Both the position numbers and the translations under genes were made by a program. A stretch of 38,614 nt of DNA, from positions 1-38,614 of the IMG/VR virus record IMGVR_UViG_3300038416_000304. One strand, given 5' to 3'. Origin of the DNA: a virus. Positions 4,373-35,952 of this stretch are shown here, one piece after another. Position 1 is the first letter of the stretch. Each line of letters begins with the position of its first letter. The notes under the pieces are model-generated. The model was not told the DNA's origin, searched no databases, and saw nothing but the letters and a program-made list of their open reading frames with translations.

Positions 4373-4566
4373 AATCCTGGCTTTGTTGCACCCTTAATCC
4401 TTTGCTAGAGTGTATGTTATGTGGCTTAAAGTTATGCGATCACCACTCTACCCTAAAAGGATTTACTGAAGTATGGAATACTACAGGTTCTTGTACCAAA
4501 GTCTCTGTAGGAGAACCTGAGGGATGTCATATTTGGGGAAGTTCAATATTCTGCCGCAACGAATAA
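4342..4566 (+). CDS. Small Cys-rich protein of a CC-x-LN family, 74 aa
   Basis: A GTG start at 4342 is supported by AAGGA six bases upstream, inside the end of the preceding gene. The product has the pattern CC-x-L-N-x4-C-x2-C-x4-C-x2-H near residues 15-31, and the same pattern occurs in the 55-residue product at 11168, so the two are paralogues. Further cysteines follow. The spacing suggests a small zinc-binding fold. No named family is recognised. Confidence 0.55.
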   Translation: MPSSSSQPQIKSWLCCTLNPLLECMLCGLKLCDHHSTLKGFTEVWNTTGSCTKVSVGEPEGCHIWGSSIFCRNE

Positions 4567-4581
4567 CACGAATACTAGTAT

Positions 4582-4589
4582 TATATAAT
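4582..4589 (+). promoter_or_regulatory. TATATAAT box abutting the queE start
   Basis: TATATAAT ends exactly at the base before the queE ATG. There is no Shine-Dalgarno sequence between. It resembles a sigma-70 -10 element but lacks a clear -35; a transcript from it would be leaderless. It could also be plain AT-rich spacer. Confidence 0.25.
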
Positions 4590-5306
4590 ATGAAATTAAA
4601 AGTAAACGAAATTTATGGACCTGTTAAGCAGGGAGAAGGCAAATCCTCAGGACTAGAAGTTCTCTTCCTAAGACTATCAGGATGTAATCTAGCTTGTTCT
4701 TGGTGTGATACCCCTTATACGTGGAATTGGCAAGGCACCAAATTTGTTCATCCAGAAAAGTATGATCCTATGAAAGAAATTGTTTTTATGGATATCGACG
4801 AGATCAAGGCTGAATTAGATAAGCTTAATACTAAAGCTGTAGTAATCTCTGGAGGAGAACCCCTACTCCAACAGAAGCCTCTTTTCCCTTTAATAGAGGC
4901 TCTTAAATTAAATGATTATTGGGTAGAGATTGAAACAAATGGTACAATAGTTCCCGACCCCGAATTTCTTGATTTAGTAGATCAGATCAATTGCAGCCCT
5001 AAGTTATCTAATTCAGGCCCAGATAATCGACCTACGATGCGTGAGAGACCTGAAGCATTAACCGCTTTAGCCTCCAGTTCTAAAGTATCTTTTAAATGGG
5101 TAGTTACGTCAGATAAGGATTTAGAGGAAATAGAAACGCTTATCTCTAAATATGGTATGAAAGAGAATTACTTAATGCCTGAAGGTAAGACTCGAGTTGA
5201 GCAGTTAGCTCGACAGGACAAGGTTAAAAAGCTTTGTGAAGAAAAAGGATTCAAGTTTAGCCCCCGACTACATGTATTAGAGAATGACGTTAAAAGGCGG
5301 ATATAA
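4590..5306 (+). CDS. queE: 7-carboxy-7-deazaguanine synthase QueE (radical SAM)
   Basis: QueE rearranges 6-carboxy-tetrahydropterin to 7-carboxy-7-deazaguanine, the step before QueC. The 238-residue protein starts at the ATG at 4590; an upstream in-frame ATG at 4524 would add 22 residues that do not fit the family. The N-terminus has the family opening (VNEIYGPVKQGEG), then the iron-sulfur cluster motif CNLACSWC with Cys32, Cys36 and Cys39 (Cx3Cx2C), and a SGGEPLLQ segment for SAM binding. It ends by overlapping the M50 protease start (ATAATGA). Confidence 0.95.
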   Translation: MKLKVNEIYGPVKQGEGKSSGLEVLFLRLSGCNLACSWCDTPYTWNWQGTKFVHPEKYDPMKEIVFMDIDEIKAELDKLNTKAVVISGGEPLLQQKPLFPLIEALKLNDYWVEIETNGTIVPDPEFLDLVDQINCSPKLSNSGPDNRPTMRERPEALTALASSSKVSFKWVVTSDKDLEEIETLISKYGMKENYLMPEGKTRVEQLARQDKVKKLCEEKGFKFSPRLHVLENDVKRRI

Positions 5307-6103
5307 TGACACTTCTTCTTAATGCAGGATATCATTTATTAGTGTATCTTTTTATTTTAGCTGTAGTAATATTTATTCACGAGATGGGTCATTACTTAGC
5401 TTGTAAGAAGTTAGGTATAGAAGTAGAAAGTTTTGCCTTAGGATTTGGTCCTGTATTATATAGTTTTAATTATTGGAACACTGAATTTTCTCTTAGAGCC
5501 ATTCCTTTAGGAGGCTTTATCAAACCTGCCGGAATTGATAAGAGTCCTTCTGAATCTAGTTCTGATGAATATTTTGGTAAAGCGTGGTATAAACGATTAC
5601 TGGTAGCCTATGCAGGACCTTTAATGAATTTTGTTTTAGCGTTTGTTATCTTTGTAGGATTAGTATTTATTAAGGATTCACGACCGCAGACGTTAGCTAA
5701 CACATCTACAAATATTTCTCATAGCGTTACGCTGAGCTCCAGGATATGCTGGTATCAGATCTCACAGACGTATCTTATTATATCTTCTAAACTTGGACAA
5801 CATCAAAATCCAGGACTAATGGGACCTATAGGTATTTTTCAAGCTGTATCTCAAGCAGCATCTAGCTGGGTTGAAATCTTTTCAATGATGGCCGCAATTT
5901 CCATAGCTATAGGCTTGTTCAATATTCTACCCATCCCTCTACTAGACGGAGGATTCGCAGTATTATTTCTGTGGGAAGGACTCACAGGAAAATTTCCTTC
6001 AAAGACAGTTGTTTTTGTTTGGCAGGTATTAGGAATAGCTTTTCTAGGATCGATTCTTTTACTAGCCACAGTCGGAGATCTAGGCAGACTTTTACATCCG
6101 TAA
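5306..6103 (+). CDS. M50-family intramembrane metalloprotease (site-2 protease-like)
   Basis: Site-2 proteases such as RseP and SpoIVFB cut transmembrane substrates inside the membrane, often freeing a sigma factor. This 265-residue protein has the HExxH zinc motif HEMGH at 25-29 inside the first membrane helix and the third-ligand motif NILPIPLLDGG at 206-216 (Asp214). About four hydrophobic segments are visible: ~10-30, ~95-120, ~185-215 and ~232-255. RseP has ~450 residues with PDZ domains; here the segment between the active-site helices is short and shows no PDZ domain. It starts at the last base of queE. A membrane protease inside a replication/modification cluster is unusual. The partner substrate is unknown; an HtrA-like protease is encoded at 28.6 kb. 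Confidence 0.9.
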   Translation: MTLLLNAGYHLLVYLFILAVVIFIHEMGHYLACKKLGIEVESFALGFGPVLYSFNYWNTEFSLRAIPLGGFIKPAGIDKSPSESSSDEYFGKAWYKRLLVAYAGPLMNFVLAFVIFVGLVFIKDSRPQTLANTSTNISHSVTLSSRICWYQISQTYLIISSKLGQHQNPGLMGPIGIFQAVSQAASSWVEIFSMMAAISIAIGLFNILPIPLLDGGFAVLFLWEGLTGKFPSKTVVFVWQVLGIAFLGSILLLATVGDLGRLLHP

Positions 6104-6139: not shown

Positions 6140-7111
6140 GTGGTTACTATAAAATCTCTTCGCCTGCAAAACTTTCAGGCTCATAAAGATAATACTATAG
6201 TCTTTGACGACTACTTCAATTGTGTTATTGGAGCAACCAGATCAGGTAAGTCATCTATGGTACGCGCTCTTAACTTTCTAATATACAATGTATGGCATAG
6301 TTCTTATGTAAGGCATGGGTGTACCGAGGTAGTAATCACCGCGACTTTGTCAAATGGATTCACTATTATTAGGATCAAAGGCGATAAAATTAATCAGATA
6401 GATGTAAGAGATTCTCAAGGTAAGGTTAAAACGTACGATAGCTTTGGTACCAACTTACCTAAAGAAGTATGCGAAGTACTAGGTATCCACCCACTTCAGA
6501 TAGATGAAGATGAATTCATTACGTCTAACGTAGTGGATCAAGATGAGCCCATGTTTCTTTTAAAAGAAAGTGGGCCTACTAAAACTAAGATTCTCGCACG
6601 CCTCGCGGGACTACACTGGATAGATTTCGCTCTAAAAGATCTTAACAAAGATAGGCGGCGACTATCTAGCGAAACAGACAGTGTTAAGTCGTCTAATTTT
6701 GAGCTTAATCAGAAATTATCTAAGCTTCCTGATCTTACAGAGGCTAGGACAAAGATAGTTCAAGTACGCACAAGGTACGAGAGCTTACGTGAGCTAGATA
6801 CATACTATAACACAGGATTAGCTCTTAAAGGAGATATTGTTTCTTGGAAGAAGCAATATTTTGAATTTAAGAAACTTAAAGACCTTAACTTTAACAATCT
6901 GATTAAACACGCGACAACAGCTCAAGATCTATATCAAGGGTATCATAAGTTGAAGGATTTGTCGTATCGATTAGAGAATATATCTGACTCCACTAAAAAT
7001 TTAGCCTCTGTTAGAATAACTATCCAGAGAGATCGAATAGAGTTGGAACATCTACTTGAAGAAGCTAGGATAGCTGCACCAATATGCCCTACGTGTAAGA
7101 GAGAATTATGA
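6140..7111 (+). CDS. N-terminal half of a split Rad50/SbcC ATPase, ending at the zinc hook
   Basis: Rad50/SbcC is an ABC ATPase that works with the Mre11/SbcD nuclease on DNA ends. This 323-residue protein has the family N-terminus (VTIKSLRLQNFQAHKD), Walker A GATRSGKS at 31-38, a short coiled coil from about 170 to 310, and ends four residues after CPTC (Cys316, Cys319), the zinc-hook CxxC. It has no ABC signature, Walker B or returning coiled coil. Those occur in a separate protein at 9368-10009. A GTG start is chosen because it gives the exact family N-terminus. It overlaps the SbcD-like gene by 4 bases (ATGA). Confidence 0.85.
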   Translation: MVTIKSLRLQNFQAHKDNTIVFDDYFNCVIGATRSGKSSMVRALNFLIYNVWHSSYVRHGCTEVVITATLSNGFTIIRIKGDKINQIDVRDSQGKVKTYDSFGTNLPKEVCEVLGIHPLQIDEDEFITSNVVDQDEPMFLLKESGPTKTKILARLAGLHWIDFALKDLNKDRRRLSSETDSVKSSNFELNQKLSKLPDLTEARTKIVQVRTRYESLRELDTYYNTGLALKGDIVSWKKQYFEFKKLKDLNFNNLIKHATTAQDLYQGYHKLKDLSYRLENISDSTKNLASVRITIQRDRIELEHLLEEARIAAPICPTCKREL

Positions 7112-8040
7112 AATCTTTAGTTCTAGGAGATTGCCATTTCTGTGATAGAACACCTCTTCGTAGAACAGATGACTTTTTACAAGCGCAGTTTACTAAATTA
7201 GCTAATTTAGAGAATTTAATTATAGCTGAAAAGGATATTGACTCTCTTTTTTTATTAGGAGATGTATTTGATATTCCCAAGCCTTCTTTAGAATTAGTGA
7301 ATAAAGTAATGGAACACCTAGACCGTATTAACAAGCTTTTACCACTAGGCATATACTCTATCGTAGGTAATCACGACGTACATGGTAGAGTAGAGAGCAT
7401 ACAAGAGACAGCGTTAGGAACGTTATATGCTTCCAGATTAGTAAAGCAATTAAAGGGTAGACAAGTAATTAAAAATATTTCTTTTTTAGGGATAGACTAT
7501 TTAGTTAATCACACCTCTGAAATATATAAAGGGAATAATCAAATTATTTTAACTCATAATATGTTACTTCCAGCACCAGCAATTTTTAAACATGTCCTCG
7601 CTAAAGAAGTAGAATTGCTAGCCCCTAATACAACAATCTTTGCAGGGCATTATCATACCCCTTTTCAAGTAGAGTTTTCTAACAACTGTAGGATAATCAA
7701 TCCGGGGGTATTAGTTCGCACTGATATATCTGAAAGAAAGATAGTCCCTAGCGTTGTTAAATTTGAAGCTTCTATGAATACTAATTTACAAGTACATTAT
7801 ACTCGAATTCCTTTAGAACAAGATAACGGGAACACAGTATTTAATTTAGAAGATTATAAAGAAGAGAAAACACAAAAGTTAGATCTAGAAAAGTTTATTA
7901 ATGGGCTCAAACAAAGCCAATTTGAATCTCAAGATATTGAGAAATTAATTCAAGAAGTAGGTAAGTTATCTAATGTTAATGAAACAATTTTACAAGAAGC
8001 TTTAAAAAGAATTAAAACAGCTCGCATGATAGTGCATTAA
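7108..8040 (+). CDS. sbcD: SbcD/Mre11-like exonuclease subunit
   Basis: A calcineurin-like metallophosphoesterase expected to be the nuclease partner of the split Rad50. Metal-site motifs appear in order: GDCH (Asp8, His10), GDVFD at 51-55, GNHD at 87-90, a histidine in LTHNM, and GHYHTP. The phosphoesterase core spans about residues 1-215; the rest is a helical, charged region that probably holds the Rad50-binding part. Length (310 aa) is close to phage gp47-type and short SbcD proteins. It lies between the two Rad50 halves and overlaps the N-half by four bases. Confidence 0.9.
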   Translation: MKSLVLGDCHFCDRTPLRRTDDFLQAQFTKLANLENLIIAEKDIDSLFLLGDVFDIPKPSLELVNKVMEHLDRINKLLPLGIYSIVGNHDVHGRVESIQETALGTLYASRLVKQLKGRQVIKNISFLGIDYLVNHTSEIYKGNNQIILTHNMLLPAPAIFKHVLAKEVELLAPNTTIFAGHYHTPFQVEFSNNCRIINPGVLVRTDISERKIVPSVVKFEASMNTNLQVHYTRIPLEQDNGNTVFNLEDYKEEKTQKLDLEKFINGLKQSQFESQDIEKLIQEVGKLSNVNETILQEALKRIKTARMIVH

Positions 8041-8054
8041 TAGATTCTTTCTTC

Positions 8055-8066
8055 TGTATTTATAAT
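8055..8066 (+). promoter_or_regulatory. TGTATTTATAAT box before the 8067 gene
   Basis: TGTATTTATAAT directly abuts the ATG at 8067, in a 26-base gap after sbcD. TATAAT (8061-8066) is a perfect -10 hexamer. No -35 is seen. Any transcript would start at or inside the start codon. Confidence 0.3.
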
Positions 8067-8357
8067 ATGAGTTCGCAAATAACACATCTGGTAATTCAAA
8101 GAAAATTCAACGAGACTATTAAACATATGGTTACATTAGCAAAGACGCCGGTTTTTAACTTACAAGTAGAAATTTTAACTCTACTAGGACGTTCCCCTAT
8201 GCGCTTTAGAGACCTTAAGTCTCGCCTTAGGATAACTGATGACAACGCTTTAGATGCAACTTTACAGACTTTGCGTAAGAATAACCAAATTTATTATACT
8301 TCAAAGGTAGGATGGTCTATTGGAAGTAGTCGTAAGAAGAGTAACAAACCTAGATAA
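8067..8357 (+). CDS. Small winged-helix DNA-binding protein, 96 aa
   Basis: The middle and C-terminal part reads as a winged helix: helix (VEILTLLGRSP), turn and second helix (RFRDLKSRLRI), recognition helix (NALDATLQTLRKN), then a beta wing (QIYYTSKVGWSIG) and a basic tail. This resembles HxlR/MarR-like regulators by layout, not by a diagnostic motif. It is probably a phage regulator or accessory DNA-binding protein. It is preceded by a TATAAT box and no Shine-Dalgarno sequence. Confidence 0.6.
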   Translation: MSSQITHLVIQRKFNETIKHMVTLAKTPVFNLQVEILTLLGRSPMRFRDLKSRLRITDDNALDATLQTLRKNNQIYYTSKVGWSIGSSRKKSNKPR

Positions 8358-8358
8358 T

Positions 8359-8538
8359 ATGGATCTCTCTAAGGAGAAATTCTTAGAGTGCGTAGATGGA
8401 TGTACTCATACATCCACGAGTGAAGCTTGTACACAATTTTGTATGCATAATATACACTTAAGTAAGTGGTGTATTCGATGTAGAGATATTTGTGGAGTAG
8501 TTGTAGTTAGACCTAACGATATTCAGGAGAGATCATGA
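8359..8538 (+). CDS. Small Cys-rich protein, 59 aa
   Basis: ATG at 8359 is one base after the previous stop and is preferred over a TTG 39 bases earlier that would lie inside the winged-helix gene. Eight cysteines are arranged as pairs (ECVDGCTH, CTQFCMH, WCIRCRDICG), indicating one or two zinc sites. The stop overlaps the queD start by four bases (ATGA). It resembles the small Cys-rich proteins at 4342 and 11168 in style but lacks their CC-x-LN signature. Confidence 0.6.
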   Translation: MDLSKEKFLECVDGCTHTSTSEACTQFCMHNIHLSKWCIRCRDICGVVVVRPNDIQERS

Positions 8539-9008
8539 TTGTATCAAAGACATTTAAGTTTGAGGCCGGTCACAGATTAGCATTTGGATATCCAGGTAAT
8601 TGCCAACACGCACACGGACATTCCTATGTAGTTACAGTAGTAATGGAAGCTAATACTGACGATCTTGATAAGTTTGGCTTTGTAAAAGATTTTAACGATT
8701 TCAAATCTCTTAAGCAGTGGATTGACGATAAATGGGATCACTCTTTTTTGGTCGCGGAGAAAGACACCCCTATGCTTACCTTTTTAAGAGAAAATAAGCA
8801 GAGACACTATATTTTTGACAATAATCCTACCGCAGAAAATATTGCCCGAGAACTATTTATTATTGCGGAAGAACTTTTAAACGATGGCGCAGCTTCTGTT
8901 ACGGAAGTAAGAGTCAATGAAACGGCTACATCTGAAGCTGTCTATAGATCTACTTTGGTTCAAGATGCTTTAGACGTTAAGAGACTACTAGCCACAGCTA
9001 AGGCTTAA
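8535..9008 (+). CDS. queD: 6-carboxy-5,6,7,8-tetrahydropterin synthase QueD
   Basis: QueD turns dihydroneopterin triphosphate into 6-carboxy-tetrahydropterin, the second step to preQ0. The 157-residue product has the zinc ligands His13, His27 and His29 (HAHGHSY segment) and the catalytic Cys23 four residues before His27. The second half keeps PTAENIARELF and the glutamate-containing strand EVRVNETATSEAVYR typical of the PTPS/QueD family. A GGAGAG site sits inside the preceding gene. It shares its last base with the next start. It is slightly longer than E. coli QueD because of an insertion around residues 80-95. Confidence 0.95.
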   Translation: MIVSKTFKFEAGHRLAFGYPGNCQHAHGHSYVVTVVMEANTDDLDKFGFVKDFNDFKSLKQWIDDKWDHSFLVAEKDTPMLTFLRENKQRHYIFDNNPTAENIARELFIIAEELLNDGAASVTEVRVNETATSEAVYRSTLVQDALDVKRLLATAKA

Positions 9009-9268
9009 TGAAGACAAATATAGAAGATATTCGAAACAGGTTAGACGACCTTAAAAAGAAAGAGGCCGTGGTAGGAACTAGAGAAGAGTATCTAGCTGAA
9101 GAAAAGAATAAGCTTCTTTTAGAAGTTAATAATTTGTTTGAATCTCTTAAAGCTACAGGATATTTTACACCTGAAGAATTAACTTCTCAAAATCTAGAGG
9201 GGGTAATGTCTAAGTTATATAAGATCATTGAAGATGAACTTAAACTAAGCGAATTGCCTACTTTATGA
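9008..9268 (+). CDS. Hypothetical coiled-coil protein, 86 aa
   Basis: It starts on the last base of queD. The sequence is nearly all charged helix with heptad-like leucines (IRNRLDDLKKKEAVV, NKLLLEVNNLFESL) and an acidic end. No enzymatic motif is seen. Its stop overlaps the start of the small membrane peptide that follows (ATGA). It lies just upstream of the Rad50 C-half, so it might assist that complex, but this is only position. Confidence 0.55.
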   Translation: MKTNIEDIRNRLDDLKKKEAVVGTREEYLAEEKNKLLLEVNNLFESLKATGYFTPEELTSQNLEGVMSKLYKIIEDELKLSELPTL

Positions 9269-9402
9269 TAGTAATAGATGCTGTCACAGATTGGCTACAA
9301 CAGAATGCTGCAGGAGTGATAGTAGGACTTTTACTATGGGTTATTTTTCTAGGAACTATTGCTTATCATGTCAAACAACAAAATAATCTCCCTAGGAAGT
9401 AA
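9265..9402 (+). CDS. 45-residue single-pass membrane peptide
   Basis: ATG at 9265 overlaps the preceding TGA and opens a 45-codon frame to TAA at 9400-9402. A hydrophobic helix covers about residues 17-34 (GVIVGLLLWVIFLGTIAY), flanked by an amphipathic N-terminus and a polar C-terminus with KQQNNLPRK. The last 35 bases overlap the Rad50 C-half in another frame. A holin-like or membrane-accessory role is possible but unsupported. Confidence 0.45.
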   Translation: MIVIDAVTDWLQQNAAGVIVGLLLWVIFLGTIAYHVKQQNNLPRK

Positions 9403-10009
9403 ATTAGTTAGTTTAGAACAGCGCCTACAATATTTAGAAGGCCAAAAAGAAACTCTTACTACCCAGTTAGAAGAAAATTCCCTTAGATTAAAAGAAATCA
9501 CTTCTGAAGAAGATACTTTTCTTAAAGCCTCCAGCTTATTACAATCTGTCTCAGAAAAAACCCGCGAACTGAGTATAACAAAGATCGAAGGTATTGTTAC
9601 TAGTGCTCTGCAGGAAATTCTAGATAACCCCTCTATTCAATTTGTGATTTTATTTGAGAACAAGCGCAACGCTGTTAGCGTAGAATTTAAGATTAGAGAC
9701 AATTTGATAGGTACTGATATGGATGTTATTAACGGGGAAGCAGGAGGTCTAAAGAACGTAATTTCTACTATCCTAAGGCTAGTCATTATAGATCTTCACT
9801 CACCAAAGATAGAAGGACCAATTATCTTAGACGAGGTAGGGGCCAATATTAGCATAGAGTATCAACCACGATTTGGTAAGTTTTTAAAAGATTATAGTCG
9901 AATGATGGGTCGTCAAATTATTCTTGTTTCACATTCCACGTCAGTTATGATAGAAGCAGACAAAGAAATTAGACTAAGTCAAACAAACGGAGTTTCTAAG
10001 GTAGTCTAA
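9368..10009 (+). CDS. C-terminal half of a split Rad50/SbcC ATPase
   Basis: This 213-residue protein carries what the 6140-7111 protein lacks: a short coiled coil (about residues 8-75), an ABC signature-like segment (INGEAGGLKN, 121-130), Walker B with catalytic acid (GPIILDEVGANIS, 150-162) and the H-loop (ILVSHS, 185-190). There is no Walker A and no CxxC. Rad50 needs Walker A from one end and signature/Walker B from the other, so the two products should assemble into one ATPase head. ATG at 9368 is preferred over TTG at 9359; it lies inside the membrane-peptide gene. Confidence 0.8.
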   Translation: MSNNKIISLGSKLVSLEQRLQYLEGQKETLTTQLEENSLRLKEITSEEDTFLKASSLLQSVSEKTRELSITKIEGIVTSALQEILDNPSIQFVILFENKRNAVSVEFKIRDNLIGTDMDVINGEAGGLKNVISTILRLVIIDLHSPKIEGPIILDEVGANISIEYQPRFGKFLKDYSRMMGRQIILVSHSTSVMIEADKEIRLSQTNGVSKVV

Positions 10010-10401
10010 TGGCAAAGAAGAAACGCAAAATTCCTGCTAGAACTATACTACGCAGATTACATAAAAAGGCTGACAAAGCTTTAAGCGACTATATAAGAAA
10101 AGAAACTATAGTTAAATATGGTAAGTGCCCTCTCTGTCTCAAAAAGCCTGTAGAAGTATGTTTTCACTTTGTGAGCCGTCGCAGAAAGATACTTCGATGG
10201 GATGCTAGAAACGTGATTGGTTCATGTCGAACGTGTAATTATGTTGAACAATTTTTGCCTGATTACAGCCGCTGTTGGTACATAAATCAGTTTGGAGTAG
10301 ATCAGTATTTAGTCCTTGTAGAGGAATCCAGAAAGAGTTTTACTCCTACTCCTGAATATCTACAAGGTATTATTGATAAATATACGACAAAATCTGTATA
10401 A
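10009..10401 (+). CDS. NinG/Rap-like zinc-binding recombination nuclease candidate
   Basis: The arrangement Cys40-x2-Cys43, His53 in FHFVSRRR, RWD at 63-65 followed by RNVIGSC and Cys73-x2-Cys76 (CRTCN), then DY around 85-86 and a YINQFG segment, matches the layout of lambda NinG (Rap) and HNH-like relatives, which act on branched recombination intermediates. The N-terminus is very basic (MAKKKRKIPARTILRRL). It starts on the last base of the Rad50 C-half, which supports a recombination role. Catalytic function is inferred from the metal-site layout, not from a conserved HNH triad. Confidence 0.65.
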   Translation: MAKKKRKIPARTILRRLHKKADKALSDYIRKETIVKYGKCPLCLKKPVEVCFHFVSRRRKILRWDARNVIGSCRTCNYVEQFLPDYSRCWYINQFGVDQYLVLVEESRKSFTPTPEYLQGIIDKYTTKSV

Positions 10402-10404
10402 ATA
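10395..10404 (+). promoter_or_regulatory. TGTATAAATA box before the 10407 gene
   Basis: The same 10 bases as at 1097-1106 occur here, overlapping the last codons and stop of the NinG-like gene, two bases before the ATG at 10407. No -35 is visible. Because the box overlaps coding sequence, it could be coincidental. Confidence 0.25.
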
Positions 10405-10406
10405 AA

Positions 10407-10658
10407 ATGGATCAGACTGAGACGTTTTGCGTTGAGCAGATACAGCGACTACTTGCAGGTAAGAAATGTAGTTTTAAGAACAAAATTTTAGCAGATCTTT
10501 TTAAGAGGGCTGCTGACGAAGTCATTGAAAAAGCGGGTACTAACGAAGTTACTGTAAATGGCGTTACCATCTACAAGAAAAAGAGTACTAAGCAGTATAT
10601 CATCCACATCAGATGGACACCTGAAGATAAACCTAAGAAGCAATCTAATAAGCCATGA
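10407..10658 (+). CDS. Hypothetical protein, 83 aa
   Basis: The N-terminal half is helical with two cysteines (FCVEQIQRLLAGKKCSF), the C-terminal half beta-rich (VTVNGVTIYKKK, YIIHIRWTPED) and the tail basic. No family is recognised. There is no Shine-Dalgarno sequence; a TGTATAAATA box precedes. The stop overlaps the next start by four bases. Confidence 0.55.
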   Translation: MDQTETFCVEQIQRLLAGKKCSFKNKILADLFKRAADEVIEKAGTNEVTVNGVTIYKKKSTKQYIIHIRWTPEDKPKKQSNKP

Positions 10659-11155
10659 CCGAAAAAAAGAACGACCTAAGCCCCGAATTTATTAGAAGCC
10701 TCCAATCAGCTATGGAAGATCCTACCTCAGGAACAGATTCACCTATAGAAGCTATTAATCGACTTCGAAAAGCTGAGAACCCTACTAATCTAGAGGATCT
10801 TCGTCGTAAGTTAGACGAGAACGCTGGCCGCTTTTCTCCTAAGGTAGTATTTCCTGGAGAGCAAGTATCCTCTTCTAATAGTGTTAACATTCCTCCCGGA
10901 ACATCCTCAGGCCCTATGAAAACTGCCTCTGCCCCTCCTCCTGAACCCCGAGTAGAGACTCGTGTTGTTTATAAAGGCCATAGATATAATGGTGACTTCT
11001 TCTCATGTATGGCAGTCGCTTTAGTTGAGCTTAACAACCCTAAAGTAAATGAAGTTATGAATGCCTGGGCTTTTGTTCTTAAAGATCTAGATGGAAATCA
11101 AGTCTTTCCCCAAAAAACTGTTTCTCGACCTCGCTCCAAAAAGAAGAAAAAGTAG
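10655..11155 (+). CDS. Hypothetical protein with basic tail, 166 aa
   Basis: Residues 1-60 are helical and charged, 60-105 a disordered Ser/Pro-rich linker (IPPGTSSGPMKTASAPPPEP), and 108-150 a compact domain (VVYKGHRYNGDFFSCMAVAL). It ends in a run of lysines (RPRSKKKKK) likely to contact nucleic acid. It begins at an ATGA overlap. The small C-terminal domain is unassigned. Confidence 0.6.
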   Translation: MTEKKNDLSPEFIRSLQSAMEDPTSGTDSPIEAINRLRKAENPTNLEDLRRKLDENAGRFSPKVVFPGEQVSSSNSVNIPPGTSSGPMKTASAPPPEPRVETRVVYKGHRYNGDFFSCMAVALVELNNPKVNEVMNAWAFVLKDLDGNQVFPQKTVSRPRSKKKKK

Positions 11156-13790: not shown

Positions 13791-14219
13791 ATGAGCACCT
13801 CCCTATTAGTTAAGCTAAATAGTCCTGACGCAAAAGTACCTTTTAAAGCCCATCCAGATGAAGACGCAGGATTTGATTTAGTAGGTACCCATGACGTAAC
13901 AGTTAAAGCTTTTGAATCTGCTATCGTTGACATTAAGTTAAGTTTAGGTATTCCTAAAGGTTATTACGGCCAATTAATGACCAGATCATCTATGGGTAAA
14001 GCTGGATTACGTATTCACCCAGGAGTAATTGATCAAGGATACAGAGGAAACATTACCGTAATAGTTGTTAATTTAACTAGCAGAGATTATGAAATTCATA
14101 CGGGTGACAAGGTAGCCCAGCTATTAATTCTACCTGTACCTAAAATAAAAGTAGAAGTTGTGACTGAACTACCTGAATCTAGTAGAGGTGAAGGTGGCTT
14201 CGGCAGTAGTGGCAGATAA
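13791..14219 (+). CDS. dut: dUTPase (deoxyuridine triphosphatase)
   Basis: Trimeric dUTPase that hydrolyses dUTP to dUMP, keeping uracil out of DNA and feeding dTMP synthesis. All five motifs are present in 142 residues: DAGFDL, TRSSMGKAG, PGVIDQGYRGNI, GDKVAQLLI and the C-terminal GEGGFGSSGR that closes over the site. It starts one base after the UDG-polymerase stop, so the uracil-related functions are adjacent. Confidence 0.96.
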   Translation: MSTSLLVKLNSPDAKVPFKAHPDEDAGFDLVGTHDVTVKAFESAIVDIKLSLGIPKGYYGQLMTRSSMGKAGLRIHPGVIDQGYRGNITVIVVNLTSRDYEIHTGDKVAQLLILPVPKIKVEVVTELPESSRGEGGFGSSGR

Positions 14220-14235
14220 ATATATGGAGATTCTA

Positions 14236-15159
14236 ATGGAAACAGTTAATACGACTGAGACGCGATTGGAAACAATTTCTAGGGCTGGAGGATTTAAGAA
14301 AGCAGCTTTGCCCGATGTACATATTACCCCTGATGAAAGAGGGATTGAGATTAATCGTGTTGGAGTAGAAGGTGTAGCTGTTCCAATTGTCTTAAATCGC
14401 AAAGGCGGAGGAGAACCTGTAAAAACTTTAGCCAAGGTTAATATGTTTGGATCTTTAGAGAAGCGCTTGAAAGGGACCAATATGAGTCGCTTCGCGCAGT
14501 TGTTTGTTACGGAGGATAATCACTCAGCACTATCTGGCAATGCCTTCCCAGCTCTTTTAGAGAAGTTAGCTACCAGTTTAGATACAAAAGATGTATACAT
14601 CTCTGCAAGCTTTGACTACTGGATGAATAAGACTACTCCTGTAAGTAAGATTTCAGCTCCTTCAGGATACTCTTGCAGATTCATTGGACAGCTTGTATCA
14701 GGTAAACTTAAATTTATTACTGAAGTAACAGTTCCAGTCGCCTCATATTGCCCTTGCAGTAAGGAGATGTGTCTTACTGATAAAAAGACGGGAGTAGGTT
14801 TAGGAGCACATGCCCAGCGAGGGATGGTCACATTACAGGTACGTACAAATCCTCCAACTCCAGGACTATGGCTAGAAGATATGATTCGCATTGCAGAGAC
14901 TTCAGGATCAGCAGAATTATACCCTATTCTTAAGAGAGAAGATGAGAAGTATGTTACTATAGCGGGATACGATAATCCTAAGTTTGTAGAAGATATTTCT
15001 AGAGATGTAGGTAATAAGATTCAGCTACTACCTGAAGCGGTTTGGTATAAAGTTAGAACCCGCAATTTGGAATCAATTCACCCTTATGATGTAACATCTT
15101 ACGTAGGTCAGAGTAAGCAGGGTGATGAGTGGGTTGTAGATACTCGCAGCTTTTATTAA
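14236..15159 (+). CDS. folE2: GTP cyclohydrolase IB (FolE2-like)
   Basis: Converts GTP to 7,8-dihydroneopterin triphosphate, the entry step of the preQ0 route. From the ATG at 14236 the product is 307 residues. Family features: PDVHI near 26-30, GTNMSRF at 80-86, the catalytic region CPCSKEM with Cys172 and Cys174, and GAHAQRGMV at 190-198. GGAG six bases upstream supports this start; an ATG at 14224 is possible and would add four residues. I considered QueF, which shares the T-fold superfamily, but the CPCSKE and AHxQR motifs fit FolE2. Confidence 0.9.
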   Translation: METVNTTETRLETISRAGGFKKAALPDVHITPDERGIEINRVGVEGVAVPIVLNRKGGGEPVKTLAKVNMFGSLEKRLKGTNMSRFAQLFVTEDNHSALSGNAFPALLEKLATSLDTKDVYISASFDYWMNKTTPVSKISAPSGYSCRFIGQLVSGKLKFITEVTVPVASYCPCSKEMCLTDKKTGVGLGAHAQRGMVTLQVRTNPPTPGLWLEDMIRIAETSGSAELYPILKREDEKYVTIAGYDNPKFVEDISRDVGNKIQLLPEAVWYKVRTRNLESIHPYDVTSYVGQSKQGDEWVVDTRSFY

Positions 15160-28588: not shown

Positions 28589-29344
28589 ATGAAAAGGATT
28601 TTTAAAAAAGTTGTAAGCGTATTACTAGCAGTCGCATTAATGTTTACCATATACGCAAAACTATCTAGCCCTTATTTGATGATTAGTAGGGTAGAAGATG
28701 CTACGGTAGTTCTTAAGATTGTTAAACAAGTAGATGTTAATCTAGGACCTCAATTACCCCCTCTGTCTAAAAATCACAGGCGCAAGCACAAAAAACATTC
28801 ACAACTTAAGATAAATCAAACTTTTCTTTGTGCGGGATATATAGCTGATGATTATGGACATATTGTTACTGCAGGTCATTGTGCTACAGGGGGAAAAGAC
28901 GTAGTATCTATTACAGTATATCTTCATAATGGAAATAAAGGATATCTAGCCAGAGTTATTCTAGTTAAGCCCTTACTGGATATAGCCTTACTACAGGCAC
29001 CTCTTCCAAAAGGATTACCTTACCTTCAATCTAAAGAAGATTATCAGACTCCTGGAACTCACGTCTACGCTATTGGACATCCATTAGCAATACTCTACAG
29101 TGTAAGCGATGGTATTACTTCTAATTATATTGACCAAGAGCATGGTATTTTATTTATCCAATCGTCAGCTCCTATTAACCCGGGTAATAGTGGAGGACCT
29201 TTAGTTGATGATAATGGAGAAGTTGTAGGAGTTTGTAGTTTTGTAGTTATTGCTCCATGGGGAAGCCCTGGCGCAGGCTTAGGATTTTCAGTTCCCTCTC
29301 CTACAATTAACGTCGTGATGAGAGGGCAGTTAAACCATAACTAA
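28589..29344 (+). CDS. Membrane-anchored HtrA/DegS-like trypsin-fold serine protease
   Basis: The 251-residue product has a basic N-terminus and hydrophobic helix at ~9-24 (signal anchor or signal peptide), a His/Lys-rich linker at 60-72, and a chymotrypsin-fold domain with the full triad: His97 in VTAGHC, Asp131 in LLDIALLQ, Ser201 in NPGNSGGPL. The PGNSGGPL context is characteristic of HtrA/Deg proteases. No PDZ domain follows, unlike DegS or DegP. It should act outside the inner membrane. It lies three bases upstream of the 2201-aa gene. It could process phage or host envelope proteins. Confidence 0.9.
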   Translation: MKRIFKKVVSVLLAVALMFTIYAKLSSPYLMISRVEDATVVLKIVKQVDVNLGPQLPPLSKNHRRKHKKHSQLKINQTFLCAGYIADDYGHIVTAGHCATGGKDVVSITVYLHNGNKGYLARVILVKPLLDIALLQAPLPKGLPYLQSKEDYQTPGTHVYAIGHPLAILYSVSDGITSNYIDQEHGILFIQSSAPINPGNSGGPLVDDNGEVVGVCSFVVIAPWGSPGAGLGFSVPSPTINVVMRGQLNHN

Positions 29345-29346
29345 AT

Positions 29347-32300
29347 ATGTCCGTAGCCTTTTACCCTAAAGAGAAGACACTCCTCTTCGCCATTCGCGAT
29401 TTTGAACCTGCTACGCAGCGTTTGCTTATGAGCACTCTGGATGTAAATGGTCTTATTTTAGATTTGCAAGCTTTTAAGCTGGTTGTATCTCGCCATATGG
29501 ATGAACTTATTAAAGATCCTTCTGAGCTAGAAGCCGCCAGGCATATTGCTTATAAGGGCCAAGTTCTTCCCCTACTTAGAGATGAGTCCAACGCACTTAA
29601 CTTTCAATATAATACTTATAAAATATATTTGTCAGATCTAGGCAAAGAAGCCTCTAGACGTAAATTATGTATTGATTTTGATGGAACTCTTTCAAAGACA
29701 GTCGATCGTGATCTTGGAGCTCCTTTTGAAGGGGCTATAGAAAGTCTTCAAAAATTTAAAGATGCTGGTTTTAGAATTGTAATCTACTCATGTAGAGCTT
29801 TATCTGATGAAGGTCTCCGCCAGATTACTGAGTGGCTAGTCCAATATAAATGCCCCTATGATGAAATTTTTAGGGGTAAGCCAGACGCTGAATATTATAT
29901 CGATGATAAAGCTATTCCTTTCAAAGGAGATTGGAATAACGTTTATCAGGAAGTAGCTACTCGAATTAAAACCTCTTTTTCAGAATCTATAGTTATTCAT
30001 AGTATGTTTCAAGAGTTTGACAAAGAAAACCCTTTAATTTCTTTACTAGAAGAATATAAAAAGACTACTAATATTAAGTCGAAAGAATATGAAGATTTAA
30101 TTGGTAAATCTGAAAATGATGAACCTGTAGTAGTTACTTATAAAATAGACGGTGAAAATACTGCTTGGGAATATACAAATGGTAAAGCCACTCTAGTATC
30201 ACGAGAAGGAAGAGTTCGAAAGGATTTTCCGGTTACCAGCGATCTAGCTGCAGCATTATCTAAATATAAGTCAGCTGTAGGCTTTGGAGAATTATACGTT
30301 GTTGACAAAGAGGGTAATAGTTTACCCTACCCTAAAGCTATGTCTATCTTACGTAAACCTCTTTCCGGAGAAGAAGAAAGTAGGATTCGCTTAGCTATAT
30401 TTGATATAGATTCTTTAGACGGTAAAAAAATAGAGAGTCCTTATTGGGAAAGATTTCTATTAATTAAAGAACTATTTAGTGATCAGAAGCATATAGATCC
30501 TATCGTGGCTAAACAGGGGAATAGATCTACTATTCAAGAGATGTGGGAACAAGGAGTTCCAGAACATTATGAGGGATTAGTAATTCATTATAATGGAGTA
30601 GTTAAAGCCAAGCCTATTCTTTCACAAGATTTAGCCGTAGTATATGTAGAAAGATCAAAGAAGCATCCTGAAGCAATGGGGGCTCTAGGATTAGCCTACT
30701 TAGATTCTGAAGGACACTACAGATTTGCAGGTAAAGTAGGTACAGGTTTTTCTGACGTTGATCGAGATATGTGGATGAGTTATGCGTTAGAAAATAAGCT
30801 ACGAGAAGAGGATGGAACCATTTGGGTTCACCCTAATCGTGTTGTTGAGGTAGCTTCCAAGGAACTTAATCTTAGAGATACTCCTTTATATGATAAAGAC
30901 TTAAAAGAGATTGGAGACGCCCCATCAGCTATTGGTCGTGAGCCCCGTCTTCTTAGAATTCGCGAAGATAAAAAAGTAATACCTCAGGACCTTCGACTAG
31001 AACAGATCCCTTCGTTTGTTAAGGAAGCAGGTTTTCCTAAGCATCCAGATACACTCATGGTAGAACCTAATGAGTGGTATCCTAAAGGTCTTCGTGAAGA
31101 AGATGTTTGGAATTGGTATGATTCTGCTAAAGACAAGTTATTACTTGCTTTAAAGGGAACTCCTACTCTGATAGTAACCAAAACTGATGGTGAACATGTC
31201 CGTCGTAATGATGCTAAGACAGGTGAAAAGATCCAAATTAATACCATTGAAGATATTGACAAGCTTAATAATGGACGCAATTTAGAGTTTCATGATACTA
31301 TAGAAGATAACGAAACTAAGAAGATTTGGGTAGATCTTGACCCAAAAGAAAATTATTCTTGGCAAGATGTAAAGAAGGTCGCTGAGGAAATCAAAAATCT
31401 TTTATCTAAGCTACCTAATGTTGAACAGACAGAAGTTCGTTTTAGCGGAGGCAGAGGAATACATTGTATAGCCTGGCTTAAGAAATCTATTAATGTAGAT
31501 GCTGCCCGAGATATGTTAAATAATTTGCTCGAGGAAGAGATAGTTCCCAGATATAAAAATACTTCTACGCATATTTCAAAAGAGTCTGACCAAATGAGAT
31601 TAGATACCACTACTCTTCATGAAGATGGATCTTTAAGAGCTTTATGGTCTCTTAATGCAAAAACAGGTTTAGTATGTTCCCAAATAGATGACTTAGTTTC
31701 AGCAGAGAAGAAGGACTTTACTATTTCACATATGAGTAAAACTTCTAGCGGTTTTAAAGCTGATCCTAATTCCACTGAGCATGAAATTCGTTGGCGTCTC
31801 CGAGACCCTAAAGATTTTAAACAAGGATCTTTTCGTAGATGGAATGAATGGGCTGGAGTAATAGCCCCTAAAGGTATTCAATTTTTGGTAGGCGATTTAG
31901 AATCTGGTAAGAAAGCCCTACAAGCTATTAGATTTAATAAGACTGATTGGACAGAAGAAAAAGCTGGAACATTTTGGAAATCTGTACAAAGTAAAAAGGG
32001 ATTTGAAAGATCTTGGACATGGCCGAAAACAGGAGTATTATATGACGAACCAATTTCTCAATCTAGTGGCGATAACATACGGATGGATCAGCCCCTTAGC
32101 TCCAATAACCCATTATCTAGCCGTGAAAGCAAAGCTAACAGCCTACTTTCTATTAGGGAAGTAGAAGCAGGCTCCGGAGCCAAAGAGTTAGCTCTGGGGT
32201 TGGGATTAGCTATGGCCCCAGGTCTCCCCGTACACGCACCTAGCGCTCCTGTATCTCAAAATGTTCAGGTAGGATGGGAACACTTTGAAGAAGCTGCTAA

Positions 32301-35300
32301 AGCTGCCGCATCCAAACATGGAATTCCTGTAGACATGTTTGTAAGGCTACTACACACAGAGAATGCTTCGGGTAAACCTTGGGCAGTTAATCCGAATAGC
32401 GGAGCCGTAGGGCTTGCTCAATTTCTTCCAGAGACTGCTAAAGAAAGGGGAATTAATCCTCTTGACGCAGCAGAGAGTATTGAAGGAGCTGCAAAATATC
32501 TAACGGATCTTCATAAGGAATTTGGTAATTGGGAAGATGCAGTTAAAGCTTACAATTGGGGTCCAGGTAATGTAAAACAATGGTTAACTAAAGGTGGAGA
32601 GATTCCTGCTGAAACTCAGGAATATATTAAACAGATCGCTCCTCCTCCAAAGCAACATGTTAAGCATCACAAATATACAGAGCTTTCTGCTAAAGAAGTA
32701 AGCTCAGCATTCCTACCATCTCTCCCTGGAGTAGTATGGGAACTGCATGATGGACCAGATATGCAGCATAGCCCCAGTACTCCTCTAGAGATGCTACATC
32801 CTGTTAATGAATGGAACACCTACGATTCCTACACGGCTATCCACGACAAGAAGGACCCTACTGATCTACTTCACTTTTTATCTCTTACAGACATAGAAAA
32901 AATGCCTGATCAAGCTTCTGATGTTAAAGAAGAAGATGAATCGAATGAAGCGCAAGATAGCATTGAATCTGCGCTAGGTAAACGCGATATAGTAAAGCGA
33001 GCAGCTACTAATGAAGAACATATGGCCCATATCAAAGGCCTAGTTAGTCAGCGACAATTTGAAAAGGCAATCGACTATATTCTTAACAACAAGTTGAACG
33101 CCCCTAAACTTTTAAAGGACCTAGAAGATAGGTCTTCCAGAGCTCCTGTTTTAAACAAAGATCAAGCCCTTCTCCTGTTAGAAAAAGGGAGTCAGGGAGC
33201 TCAAAGTAATGCCGTAAAGTGGCTCGCTAAGAATAATAATATTAATGAACTAGCAGCCGTATTCCCTTTAGTTTCGTTTAACCCCTCTATCGCTAAAGAG
33301 ATTATAGACGTCTTTAAGAACATTAAGAACGTAATAGTTCTCAATAGATTGTTTACCAATACAAGTATCCCTGAAGGAATTCGCCGAGAAATAGTAGAAG
33401 CGCTTTTAGCCATAAATTATATTCCTATTGTTGACGAAGCTATTAAAGATGATTCTGAACAGATTAGATCTACGGGGTATAAGGCAGCTTCTCACCTTAA
33501 GGCTAAAGATCATTTGCTTGAAGAAGGTACCAAAGATCCTTCAGCTAAGATTCGTCGAGAGGTATACGGATACCTCTGGGAGGCTCAAACCCCTACAGCT
33601 ATAGATCTATTTTATAAAGGACAGACTGATGAAGATCCTTTGATACAAAAGTTTGTTAAAGAGAAGATAGGTATCTCTAAAAGTCATCCAAAAGAAGTTC
33701 CTACTCATGGAGACGAACTAACTCCAAAGATAATAGAAGAGGGTGTAGAGGATGCAAAGGAATATTTTAAGAAGCACCCCGAACTAGCAGAGAAGCTAAA
33801 GAAGGAACAGGAAGAGCGTGAAAAGCAGATACAGTATAATAAGAGTCTAACACCTATTAAAAATAAAAGAGAGAAAGAAATAGAAGAGCGTGAGAAAGCT
33901 AAAGCGTCCTCTCTTTCTTACAAAGAAATATTAAAGCAGGCGAACGACGCACCTAGAGAATTTTCGTGCGTGCTAGCCTCTCTGGGAGAGCCCCTAAAGA
34001 AGATTTTCAAAGATCTCGCGAACTCTATCCCTGAAGAAGAGATATATAATCCAAAGGAAGACCCTAAGTATGGTAGAGAAGAGAAGCCGCACGCTACTAT
34101 TTTGTTCGGCATCCACTCTCAGAATCCTAAGGAAGTAGAGTTTTTACTGTCTAGCAAGCCTAAGATAAGCGCAACCTTGGAAGATTTCAGCCTATTTGAG
34201 CCTGAAGACAAAGAGTACGACGTTCTAAAAGTATCCCTAGTATCAAAAGATCTAACTGAGCTGCACGATCTATTAAAGCAGAGTCTTGATAATACTGAGA
34301 GCTTTCCAGAGTACAACCCTCACTTAACCATAGCTTACCTTAAGAAGGGCAAAGGTAAAAATTATGTTGGTGACACATCCTGGGCTAATGTCAATAGATC
34401 TAAAGTGGTAGATAAAGAAGCTACCTTTGGAGAAGTTCAGTTTAGTGACAAGAATAGCAATAAGACTACGTTTCCGCTAAAAATAGCTTCTCTATCTAAA
34501 GAAGCCATTCAACCTCCTGCAGGTATAACTAAAGAACTAGAACCTGCTTTCGAATGGGGTGAAAGAGATGACGGCCTTCTAGCCAAAGATGTAAAACAGT
34601 ATTATGGACGTCCTAAATCAGAATGGCGTAATAATATGAATCTACTACCTGAGTTTCTTAAAAAGATGATAGAGGACGAAGATATGAGTAAAGAAGATCT
34701 AGTTCAACCTGTAAAGCTTGGAGCAGGTAATGTTTCTTTACCTCCAGGCACTCCTTTTAAATTAAAGCAAGATTTGGCACCTCTTCATAAAGGAACTCCT
34801 GGATATGTTCTTTGGCCCGATAAAGTACAGCCATATAAATATAATCCTACTGTTTATGTAGTCTGGCTTAAAGGAGTAGAATCTAATCCCGGAGATATTT
34901 TACTTACAGAAGATATGATGGAATTTGAAACCTCAAAAGTAACTCCTGAGGTAGAAGAATTAGGGCAATCAGTAGCTGATCAAATTAGAGAGGAGATAAA
35001 GAAAGAAAAAGAAGAAAATACCCCTCAGTCGCCTGCGGATGTTAAAGTAATGGATTCTAAGACTCTTAAGCGCAAGCGAGATGAGATGTTGGATAACATG
35101 TTGAAGTATCCTGAAGGATCTCCTGAGAGAAAGAAATGGGAAGAAAGACTTAAAGCGTTTGGAATGAAAATCTCTCTTTCTTACAGAGAAGTAACCCCTA
35201 TCAACTATGATACGGATCTAGTACAGGCGATACACAATCCTATTAGCGAACAGGCTAAGAGTGTATTAGATAGCATGTCAGACTCTCCAAGTTATATGGA

Positions 35301-35952
35301 ATTTATACTTCGTAGAGCTCGAGAGTTGAAAGATAACGGTCGAATATCTGATAGGCAGTTTAATGACTTTTCTCAAAAGTTACATGCTCTCGCTTTGAAC
35401 AAAGGAGTTATTAAACCGGGCCAAAAGATTATCGCTAGTATTCTTTCGTACAAAGAAGCAGCCTCAAATGTTTATGACGACTATGAACAGACTGCTATAG
35501 ACGATGATAGAAGATTAGAACGCACTGAGGACGATGAAGGCGTTCTAATTATGGACCGTGATTGGATAAGTGATACTCAAACTTTCCCTAGAGGGGTACC
35601 TTCTCCGCCCGCCAGATGGGTAGATCCTGATAGAGAGGAAGACGAAGTAGGAGGCACTAAGCTACGCAATGGCGTAACTTATTGGGAACCCTCTCCAGGT
35701 AATCTAGATGGTATGCCGGCAGGACAGTCTTTTTCTTCCCTTACAGCTGAAGTCAGCAATAGTGGAGCCAGAGTAACTTGTTCTTGGGATAATGAAGATT
35801 CTCTTTCTTTTTCAGAACAAGAAGTAACTTCTGCACTGATTAGTTTTATTAAAGCTAATCTACCCCATATTTTTGATAAATTTAAAAGCATTTCTTCAGA
35901 ACATGTAGACTTATCTACTAGAACTCTTGTATTAAAATTCCAGGGAGACTAA
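29347..35952 (+). CDS. 2201-aa fusion: HAD phosphatase, DNA ligase, LigD-type polymerase, lytic transglycosylase, HEAT-like, 2H phosphoesterase
   Basis: A single frame. Domains in order: HAD phosphatase (~105-215; CIDFDGT with Asp110, YYIDDKAI); ATP-dependent DNA ligase (~255-550; Lys266 in YKIDGEN, then GFGELYV, AIFDIDSLDG, EGLVIH, VVKAKP, LLRIREDK); LigD-type primase-polymerase (~560-745; VDLDP with Asp663/Asp665, SGGRGIH, then RLDTTT); a phage-type module with RWRLRDP and RFNKTDWTEE (~765-880); SLT lytic transglycosylase (~985-1095; Glu1005, GAVGLAQFLPETA, YNWGPGNV); HEAT-like helices (~1215-1430); 2H phosphoesterase (~1530-1700; His1582xThr1584, His1659xThr1661); SH3-like segment (~1770-1840); unknown C-terminus. 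LSYKE-type motifs fall at residues 934, 1113, 1523, 1716, 1944 and 2033. Repair plus peptidoglycan cutting suggests a virion protein delivered with the DNA. Confidence 0.85.
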   Translation: MSVAFYPKEKTLLFAIRDFEPATQRLLMSTLDVNGLILDLQAFKLVVSRHMDELIKDPSELEAARHIAYKGQVLPLLRDESNALNFQYNTYKIYLSDLGKEASRRKLCIDFDGTLSKTVDRDLGAPFEGAIESLQKFKDAGFRIVIYSCRALSDEGLRQITEWLVQYKCPYDEIFRGKPDAEYYIDDKAIPFKGDWNNVYQEVATRIKTSFSESIVIHSMFQEFDKENPLISLLEEYKKTTNIKSKEYEDLIGKSENDEPVVVTYKIDGENTAWEYTNGKATLVSREGRVRKDFPVTSDLAAALSKYKSAVGFGELYVVDKEGNSLPYPKAMSILRKPLSGEEESRIRLAIFDIDSLDGKKIESPYWERFLLIKELFSDQKHIDPIVAKQGNRSTIQEMWEQGVPEHYEGLVIHYNGVVKAKPILSQDLAVVYVERSKKHPEAMGALGLAYLDSEGHYRFAGKVGTGFSDVDRDMWMSYALENKLREEDGTIWVHPNRVVEVASKELNLRDTPLYDKDLKEIGDAPSAIGREPRLLRIREDKKVIPQDLRLEQIPSFVKEAGFPKHPDTLMVEPNEWYPKGLREEDVWNWYDSAKDKLLLALKGTPTLIVTKTDGEHVRRNDAKTGEKIQINTIEDIDKLNNGRNLEFHDTIEDNETKKIWVDLDPKENYSWQDVKKVAEEIKNLLSKLPNVEQTEVRFSGGRGIHCIAWLKKSINVDAARDMLNNLLEEEIVPRYKNTSTHISKESDQMRLDTTTLHEDGSLRALWSLNAKTGLVCSQIDDLVSAEKKDFTISHMSKTSSGFKADPNSTEHEIRWRLRDPKDFKQGSFRRWNEWAGVIAPKGIQFLVGDLESGKKALQAIRFNKTDWTEEKAGTFWKSVQSKKGFERSWTWPKTGVLYDEPISQSSGDNIRMDQPLSSNNPLSSRESKANSLLSIREVEAGSGAKELALGLGLAMAPGLPVHAPSAPVSQNVQVGWEHFEEAAKAAASKHGIPVDMFVRLLHTENASGKPWAVNPNSGAVGLAQFLPETAKERGINPLDAAESIEGAAKYLTDLHKEFGNWEDAVKAYNWGPGNVKQWLTKGGEIPAETQEYIKQIAPPPKQHVKHHKYTELSAKEVSSAFLPSLPGVVWELHDGPDMQHSPSTPLEMLHPVNEWNTYDSYTAIHDKKDPTDLLHFLSLTDIEKMPDQASDVKEEDESNEAQDSIESALGKRDIVKRAATNEEHMAHIKGLVSQRQFEKAIDYILNNKLNAPKLLKDLEDRSSRAPVLNKDQALLLLEKGSQGAQSNAVKWLAKNNNINELAAVFPLVSFNPSIAKEIIDVFKNIKNVIVLNRLFTNTSIPEGIRREIVEALLAINYIPIVDEAIKDDSEQIRSTGYKAASHLKAKDHLLEEGTKDPSAKIRREVYGYLWEAQTPTAIDLFYKGQTDEDPLIQKFVKEKIGISKSHPKEVPTHGDELTPKIIEEGVEDAKEYFKKHPELAEKLKKEQEEREKQIQYNKSLTPIKNKREKEIEEREKAKASSLSYKEILKQANDAPREFSCVLASLGEPLKKIFKDLANSIPEEEIYNPKEDPKYGREEKPHATILFGIHSQNPKEVEFLLSSKPKISATLEDFSLFEPEDKEYDVLKVSLVSKDLTELHDLLKQSLDNTESFPEYNPHLTIAYLKKGKGKNYVGDTSWANVNRSKVVDKEATFGEVQFSDKNSNKTTFPLKIASLSKEAIQPPAGITKELEPAFEWGERDDGLLAKDVKQYYGRPKSEWRNNMNLLPEFLKKMIEDEDMSKEDLVQPVKLGAGNVSLPPGTPFKLKQDLAPLHKGTPGYVLWPDKVQPYKYNPTVYVVWLKGVESNPGDILLTEDMMEFETSKVTPEVEELGQSVADQIREEIKKEKEENTPQSPADVKVMDSKTLKRKRDEMLDNMLKYPEGSPERKKWEERLKAFGMKISLSYREVTPINYDTDLVQAIHNPISEQAKSVLDSMSDSPSYMEFILRRARELKDNGRISDRQFNDFSQKLHALALNKGVIKPGQKIIASILSYKEAASNVYDDYEQTAIDDDRRLERTEDDEGVLIMDRDWISDTQTFPRGVPSPPARWVDPDREEDEVGGTKLRNGVTYWEPSPGNLDGMPAGQSFSSLTAEVSNSGARVTCSWDNEDSLSFSEQEVTSALISFIKANLPHIFDKFKSISSEHVDLSTRTLVLKFQGD
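32146..35457 (+). repeat. Dispersed LS[Y/I/A][K/R]E linker motif in the 2201-aa protein
   Basis: Six occurrences, given by DNA position of the core: 32146-32160 (LSIRE, followed by VEAG), 32683-32697 (LSAKE, then VSSA), 33913-33927 (LSYKE, then ILKQA), 34492-34503 (LSKE, then AIQPP; one residue shorter), 35176-35190 (LSYRE, then VTP) and 35443-35457 (LSYKE, then AAS). Each lies between recognisable domains. The same motif is at 26524-26538 (LSYRE) and 36631-36645 (LSKKE, then LLKKA) in neighbouring genes. Confidence 0.7.

Follow-up and report, generated by a model that had tools for sequence, protein, structure and literature searches.

The Rad50/SbcC subunit of the Mre11–Rad50 (SbcD–SbcC) complex is encoded in separate pieces in a viral stretch of 38,614 bp (IMG/VR virus record IMGVR_UViG_3300038416_000304, likely a fragment), hereafter the window. 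The locus very probably specifies a phage Mre11–Rad50 complex whose Rad50 consists of three polypeptides: an N-half that terminates at the zinc hook, a small coiled-coil protein (the coil protein) and a C-half. The lobes, motifs, zinc hook, nuclease partner and linkage to SbcD are shared with SbcC/Rad50 and SbcD/Mre11 of bacteria, archaea and phage T4 (gp46/gp47). However, the known SbcC/Rad50 proteins are single chains with roughly equal arms, whereas in the family of the window the chain is interrupted twice, at the hook and at the base of the arm. The evidence for this reading comprises homology, complementary motifs, conservation and co-occurrence of the parts, the order of their genes and fusions between them; we infer from it that the chains assemble physically, that the small protein is part of the arm, that zinc is bound and that the complex acts as a nuclease. 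The locus is arranged as follows.

6140..7111, plus strand: Rad50/SbcC N-half, 323 amino acids (aa), GTG start; N-lobe with Walker A and Q-loop, outgoing arm and C-terminal CPTC
7108..8040, plus strand: SbcD/Mre11-like nuclease, 310 aa (PF00149; profile match to Mre11)
8067-8357, plus strand: winged-helix open reading frame (ORF), interposed, outside the complex
~8359-8538, plus strand: Cys-rich ORF, interposed, outside the complex
8535-9008, plus strand: queD, interposed, outside the complex (phrog_2389, 7.5e-33)
9008..9268, plus strand: small coiled-coil protein, 86 aa, proposed detached Rad50 return arm (family profile match 1e-10)
~9265-9402: small membrane peptide, interposed
9368..10009, plus strand: Rad50/SbcC C-half, 213 aa, ATG start; short arm base, signature, Walker B and H-loop

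The end of the N-half (7111) and the start of the C-half (9368, with an alternative TTG start possible at 9359) are separated by 2.26 kb, and the start codon of SbcD overlaps the stop codon of the N-half (ATGA). The N-half contains the Walker A motif GATRSGKS, the Q-loop glutamine and the C-terminus ICPTCKREL, in which CPTC is followed by four residues. The C-half contains a GG signature region, the Walker B motif PIILDE and the H-loop histidine; in place of LSGGE, most members of the family have xxxGGG as the signature, and the window has EAGGLKN. An earlier note on this DNA had described a Rad50/SbcC cut at its zinc hook with SbcD in between, the first protein ending four residues after CPTC and carrying Walker A, the second carrying signature, Walker B and H-loop; these coordinates, frames and motifs were all confirmed, and profile comparisons agree with them. 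A profile of nine N-halves, compared with the sequences of the PDB, ranks archaeal Rad50 first (3aux, residues 5-222; 1.8e-15), and the corresponding profile built from ten C-halves finds the C-lobe chains 3qkr_B and 1ii8_B as well as residues 170-369 of 3aux (3.5e-13 to 2e-12). Since the two profiles match different stretches of the same structures, the N- and C-halves would be complementary parts of one Rad50. Among phage protein families, the N-half family matches phrog_16465 (9e-32) and the SbcC-like phrog_77, hook region included (3e-12), and the C-half family matches phrog_15167, annotated as ATPase, over its full length (5e-37). The SbcD of the window matches PF00149 (Metallophos) at 5e-9 and, as its best profile match, Mre11 (1ii7, 8e-11); the phosphoesterase motifs DxH, GDxxD, GNHD, H and GHxH are all present, with invariant metal-site residues. 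In fact, the catalytic motifs of both halves and of SbcD are retained throughout the family.

The assignment of the N- and C-halves as complementary lobes of one ATPase head is also supported by AlphaFold2 models, built for two relatives with natural fusions and not for the window proteins. The first of these (locus L154; N-half, hook and coil; predicted local distance difference test score, pLDDT, of 80) aligns with residues 1-148 of Pyrococcus furiosus Rad50 in 1f2u_C (Z 13.3). The second (L048; coil and C-half; pLDDT 91) aligns with residues 738-880 in 1f2u_B (Z 14.8, root-mean-square deviation 2.5). In the two-chain crystal constructs 1f2t and 1ii8, separate N- and C-lobes form one head; the separation was engineered there and is natural in the phage family. 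The split set thus has the N-lobe motifs, the C-lobe motifs, a CxxC at the arm tip and a linked Mre11/SbcD, all as in Rad50/SbcC. On the other hand, a typical Rad50/SbcC has both lobes, and arms that pair, in one chain; among 106 unique complete N-halves and their loci, no ORF of the split family contains both N- and C-lobe, and the set is therefore regarded as a variant, not as a typical member of Rad50/SbcC.

The same split has been found in more than 100 diverse viral contigs, in five phage genome records and in genomes of Bacillota. A search of IMG/VR with the N- and C-halves gave about 130 loci, which were then scanned with four profiles (N-half, SbcD, coil and C-half); all four parts are present in most loci having enough sequence. 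The N-half ends at most 24 residues past the CxxC in 103 of the 106 unique complete proteins. The genes of each locus lie on one strand, and the order is N-half, coil, C-half in 86 of 87 loci, with interposed genes that vary from relative to relative. In each of 20 large records, which range from 58 to 309 kb, the two halves are separate ORFs, and no full-length SbcC was found in these records, the 116-kb closest relative of the window included. Their matches to the Rad50-type N-lobe (PF13476) are confined to the split N-halves, besides a second N-half of 414 aa in G020 and a weak match of 295 aa in G024. In G020 (IMGVR_UViG_3300028805_000037, a 300-kb phage) the second N-half, with a coil gene of its own, lies at 210814-213177 beside the first set, and this genome possibly contains two split Rad50 systems. 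The phage records with the split are those of Bacillus phage vB_BboS-125, Microbacterium phage Magritte, Tunturiibacter phage Tunturi_5, Microcystis phage Mvi-JY20 and an uncultured 485-kb phage. For example, the four genes of Mvi-JY20 overlap in a tight operon (L206, 3752-6579), each of them annotated as hypothetical. In Magritte the N- and C-half genes are about 40 kb apart, across the record ends.

Cellular genomes also contain the set. A scan of GTDB genomes with a Bacillus-type C-half gave matches in Sutcliffiella, Paenibacillus, Brevibacillus, Moorella and others, with a hook-ending N-half in nine of ten loci (the tenth being a short contig); a scan of genome contigs with a window-type N-half gave no match. 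A C-half match was present in 26 of 149 sampled genomes of Bacillota, the phylum to which Paenibacillus belongs. Nineteen regions of this phylum were inspected: 18 have a stand-alone C-half, accompanied in every case by N-half, SbcD and coil, and the nineteenth is the armless locus L207 described below. Trans-splicing or a split intein was considered as the origin of the arrangement and rejected, because the N-half has its own stop codon right after the hook and the C-half its own ATG; Pfam, the only check made for this, matched no intein domain.

The third piece is a family of proteins mostly of 76-129 aa, equivalent to phrog_18563, a PHROGs family of unknown function. Its gene is directly upstream of the C-half, overlapping it or at most 60 nt away, in 65 of 87 loci. 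In L154 a single ORF contains SbcD (1-303), the N-half from residue 308, a CPLC hook and the coil at 710-760 (profile E 6e-4), and no better coil match exists elsewhere in this 172-kb record. A weaker case is L048, in which the coil (6-77; E 4e-4) is fused before the C-lobe (81-281), and no separate coil gene was found in its 126-kb record; the model of this protein has a helix at 2-55, a short break and further helices leading into the C-lobe. Three other candidates for fusions of coil and C-half were rejected: L102 has a separate coil gene, and L046 and L047, which have a divergent coil-like gene of 142-144 aa upstream, were not counted. Because it is placed between the two halves and is joined to the hook end of the N-half in L154 and to the front of the C-lobe in L048, the coil would correspond to the segment between hook and C-lobe; a detached Rad50 return arm best fits its position and fusions. 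Lengths can also be compared. In the window the arm of the C-half has about 60 residues and that of the N-half about 158, a difference that the 86-aa coil supplies, and in the closest relative of the window an outgoing arm of 158 residues stands against a return arm of 86 + 62 = 148. The earlier note had regarded the interposed genes as unrelated; in fact two of the six between the halves, SbcD and probably the coil (9008-9268), belong to the system, and four interposed genes remain.

Further fusions and armless relatives connect the parts. SbcD and N-half form one ORF in L049 and L128, as they do in L154 with hook and coil. In L049 (218,948 bp), which we provisionally take to be Bacillus phage 0305phi8-36, this ORF is followed by the coil (9280-9579) and then, about 1 kb downstream, by the C-half (10304-11014); if so, that phage very probably belongs to the split family. 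L207 (6655-8754) is a 700-aa single ORF with SbcD (3-325), N-lobe (334-500) and C-lobe (509-680), and has neither arm nor hook; it adjoins two large ORFs that are AddA/AddB-like by our reading. The bacterial order of L207 (Bacillota) contains more armless chromosomal forms (L226-L234), either fused to SbcD (~700 aa) or as a chain of N- and C-lobe of 350-380 aa beside SbcD, and split sets occur in the same order. The strongest argument that the N- and C-halves of the split family form one ATPase is that these armless relatives join the N-lobe directly to the C-lobe; together with the fusions of SbcD to the N-half, they indicate that the parts belong to one machine. The distance matrices of N-half, C-half and SbcD correlate at 0.78-0.82 (null at most 0.12). 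In an unrooted tree of N-lobes, 79 split proteins are parted from 12 full-length ones (from E. coli, T4, cyanophages and hosts) by one branch with a Shimodaira–Hasegawa-like approximate likelihood-ratio support of 100. Eight armless relatives, when added, form one group (support 85) among the split proteins, with weak inner support. This unrooted tree, with its small full-length sample, would suit a history in which one ancient split was followed by a single later rejoining that cost the arms.

The lengths of the outgoing arm in 79 N-halves cluster near 150, 200, 250, 300 and 350 residues. A period of 50, the best of a scan, gives R 0.68 against a 99.9% null of 0.35-0.38 that was scanned likewise, and a 47-residue internal repeat is present in long outgoing arms (for example in the N-halves L012 6001-7416 and L143 1422-2984). 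The return arm stays near 140 residues (median 143), independently of the outgoing arm (r -0.10, in a table that includes L154 with its whole fusion miscounted as coil). Since one arm varies while the other does not, the long arms would not be a simple two-stranded coil over their full length. The earlier proposal of a natural two-chain Rad50 with pairing arms thus stands in part: the halves appear to be complementary lobes of one head, but at least three chains seem to be involved and equal-arm pairing is not general. A tentative extension, to which we give somewhat less than an even chance, is that the arm is a removable part in an old and widespread class of Rad50, with a free return-arm subunit, an outgoing rod that lengthens independently by repeats of ~47-50 residues, and arms lost in some relatives.

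In the proposed three-chain complex, the N-half would contribute the N-lobe together with the outgoing arm and one half of a zinc hook; most of the return arm would come from the coil protein, and the arm base and the C-lobe from the C-half. Closure of the two lobes would give one ABC ATPase head, and a pair of these heads would sandwich ATP, with the Walker A of an N-half facing the signature of the C-half in the opposite head. Zinc would bridge the CxxC motifs of two N-halves, and SbcD, located at the head, would cut DNA ends or hairpins. By analogy with T4 gp46/47, the role is likely to be end processing for recombination-dependent phage replication or the breakdown of host DNA.

Several observations weigh against this proposal. 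Members of the coil family are short and divergent, and the fusions that support their role are one good case (L154) and one weaker (L048). The L154 model falls below pLDDT 50 near the hook-proximal arm, so that the fold-back there is only presumed. The outgoing arm may exceed twice the return arm, the lengths being strongly unequal in many relatives, and the N-half of Magritte (L013, 4998-6050) has no terminal CxxC. Finally, host genomes carry their own full-length SbcC, and mixed complexes may therefore form.

The divergence of the coil would suit a true two-chain Rad50, in which head and arm come from the N- and C-halves alone and the coil is a separate partner from the same operon that binds DNA, regulates or acts like a clamp. 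No match was obtained between the coil profile and the return arms of E. coli SbcC and T4 gp46, the coil is missing or hard to detect in some members, and armless relatives dispense with the arm altogether. We nevertheless consider this unlikely, given the coil gene between the halves in nearly all ordered loci, its fusions behind the hook and before the C-lobe, and the matching arm lengths (158 and 148) in the window group. Phages commonly block host nucleases, and the full-length SbcC of the hosts would offer a target if the split proteins were inhibitors that join and poison host SbcCD with no nuclease of their own; but the motifs preserved in both halves and SbcD, the co-inheritance of the three and the chromosomal sets make this very improbable. 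An anti-phage or inter-phage defence ATPase system, instead of a replication nuclease, is suggested by a weak likeness to the ATPase domains of AriA, LmuB and GajA (PADLOC). We consider this very improbable as well, since the similarity does not extend beyond ATPase regions of a generic kind, SbcD is the partner and the window module lies among replication and recombination genes, including RecA and a PolA-type polymerase. The interposed genes, homing-type HNH/AP2 genes among them in some relatives, might suggest that SbcC is decaying or is an artefact, produced by a frameshift, by an error of assembly or by an insertion that broke the gene. This is already refuted by the shared break point with intact motifs in independent contigs and isolate genomes, and the earlier argument against a recent frameshift holds.

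With respect to the literature, the SbcD–SbcC fusions listed in a 2011 paper include that of phage 0305phi8-36, in which one SbcC P-loop NTPase segment was reported as not observed (PMC3175470); in L049 the C-half has its own gene, preceded by that of the coil. In passages of a jumbo-phage survey, other split enzymes (RNA polymerase, a minimal Pol III) are multi-chain versions of cellular single-chain enzymes, and SbcC/SbcD is treated as universal in jumbo Myoviridae; its SbcC passages do not mention a split SbcC (PMC7824862). PHROG families 16465 ("exonuclease"), 18563 (unknown) and 15167 ("ATPase"), which correspond to the N-half, coil and C-half, have not been described jointly or as pieces of one Rad50. 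No report of a natural split Rad50/SbcC was found in the literature searched, whose coverage leaves out subscription papers and some preprints.

Other genes of the window deserve mention. An M50 site-2 protease gene (RseP-like; 5306-6103) lies immediately upstream of the N-half, in a phage. QueC-like (by our reading), QueE, QueD and FolE2 genes are located at 210-893, 4524-5306, 8535-9008 and 14188-15159, and this set, with queD between the Rad50 halves, suggests 7-deazaguanine modification of the phage DNA. A 2201-aa ORF (29347-35952) combines LigD-like ligase, primase-polymerase, lytic transglycosylase and 2H phosphoesterase domains, the last with a sub-threshold match to the anti-CBASS protein Acb1, and looks like an injected multi-enzyme virion protein. 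A trypsin-like (HtrA-type) protease with a signal-like N-terminus, again in a phage, is encoded at 28589-29344.

Rad50 and SMC proteins are thought to need a single fold-back chain that mechanically couples head, arm and hook. The family described here is, judged from its sequences, a conserved three-chain variant of Rad50–Mre11 that most probably serves phages as a recombination nuclease. With its natural breaks at hook and arm base, it offers a system for asking what chain continuity, arm length and hook contribute, with pieces that can be separately mixed, omitted or mutated. A function can be proposed for three poorly named phage protein families (phrog_16465, 18563 and 15167), and the half-missing SbcC of phage 0305phi8-36 would be explained, if the presumed identity of L049 holds. 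If the arm is indeed removable, its assembly would serve as a point of regulation (of loading, opening or arm length) that is impossible for a single-chain Rad50.

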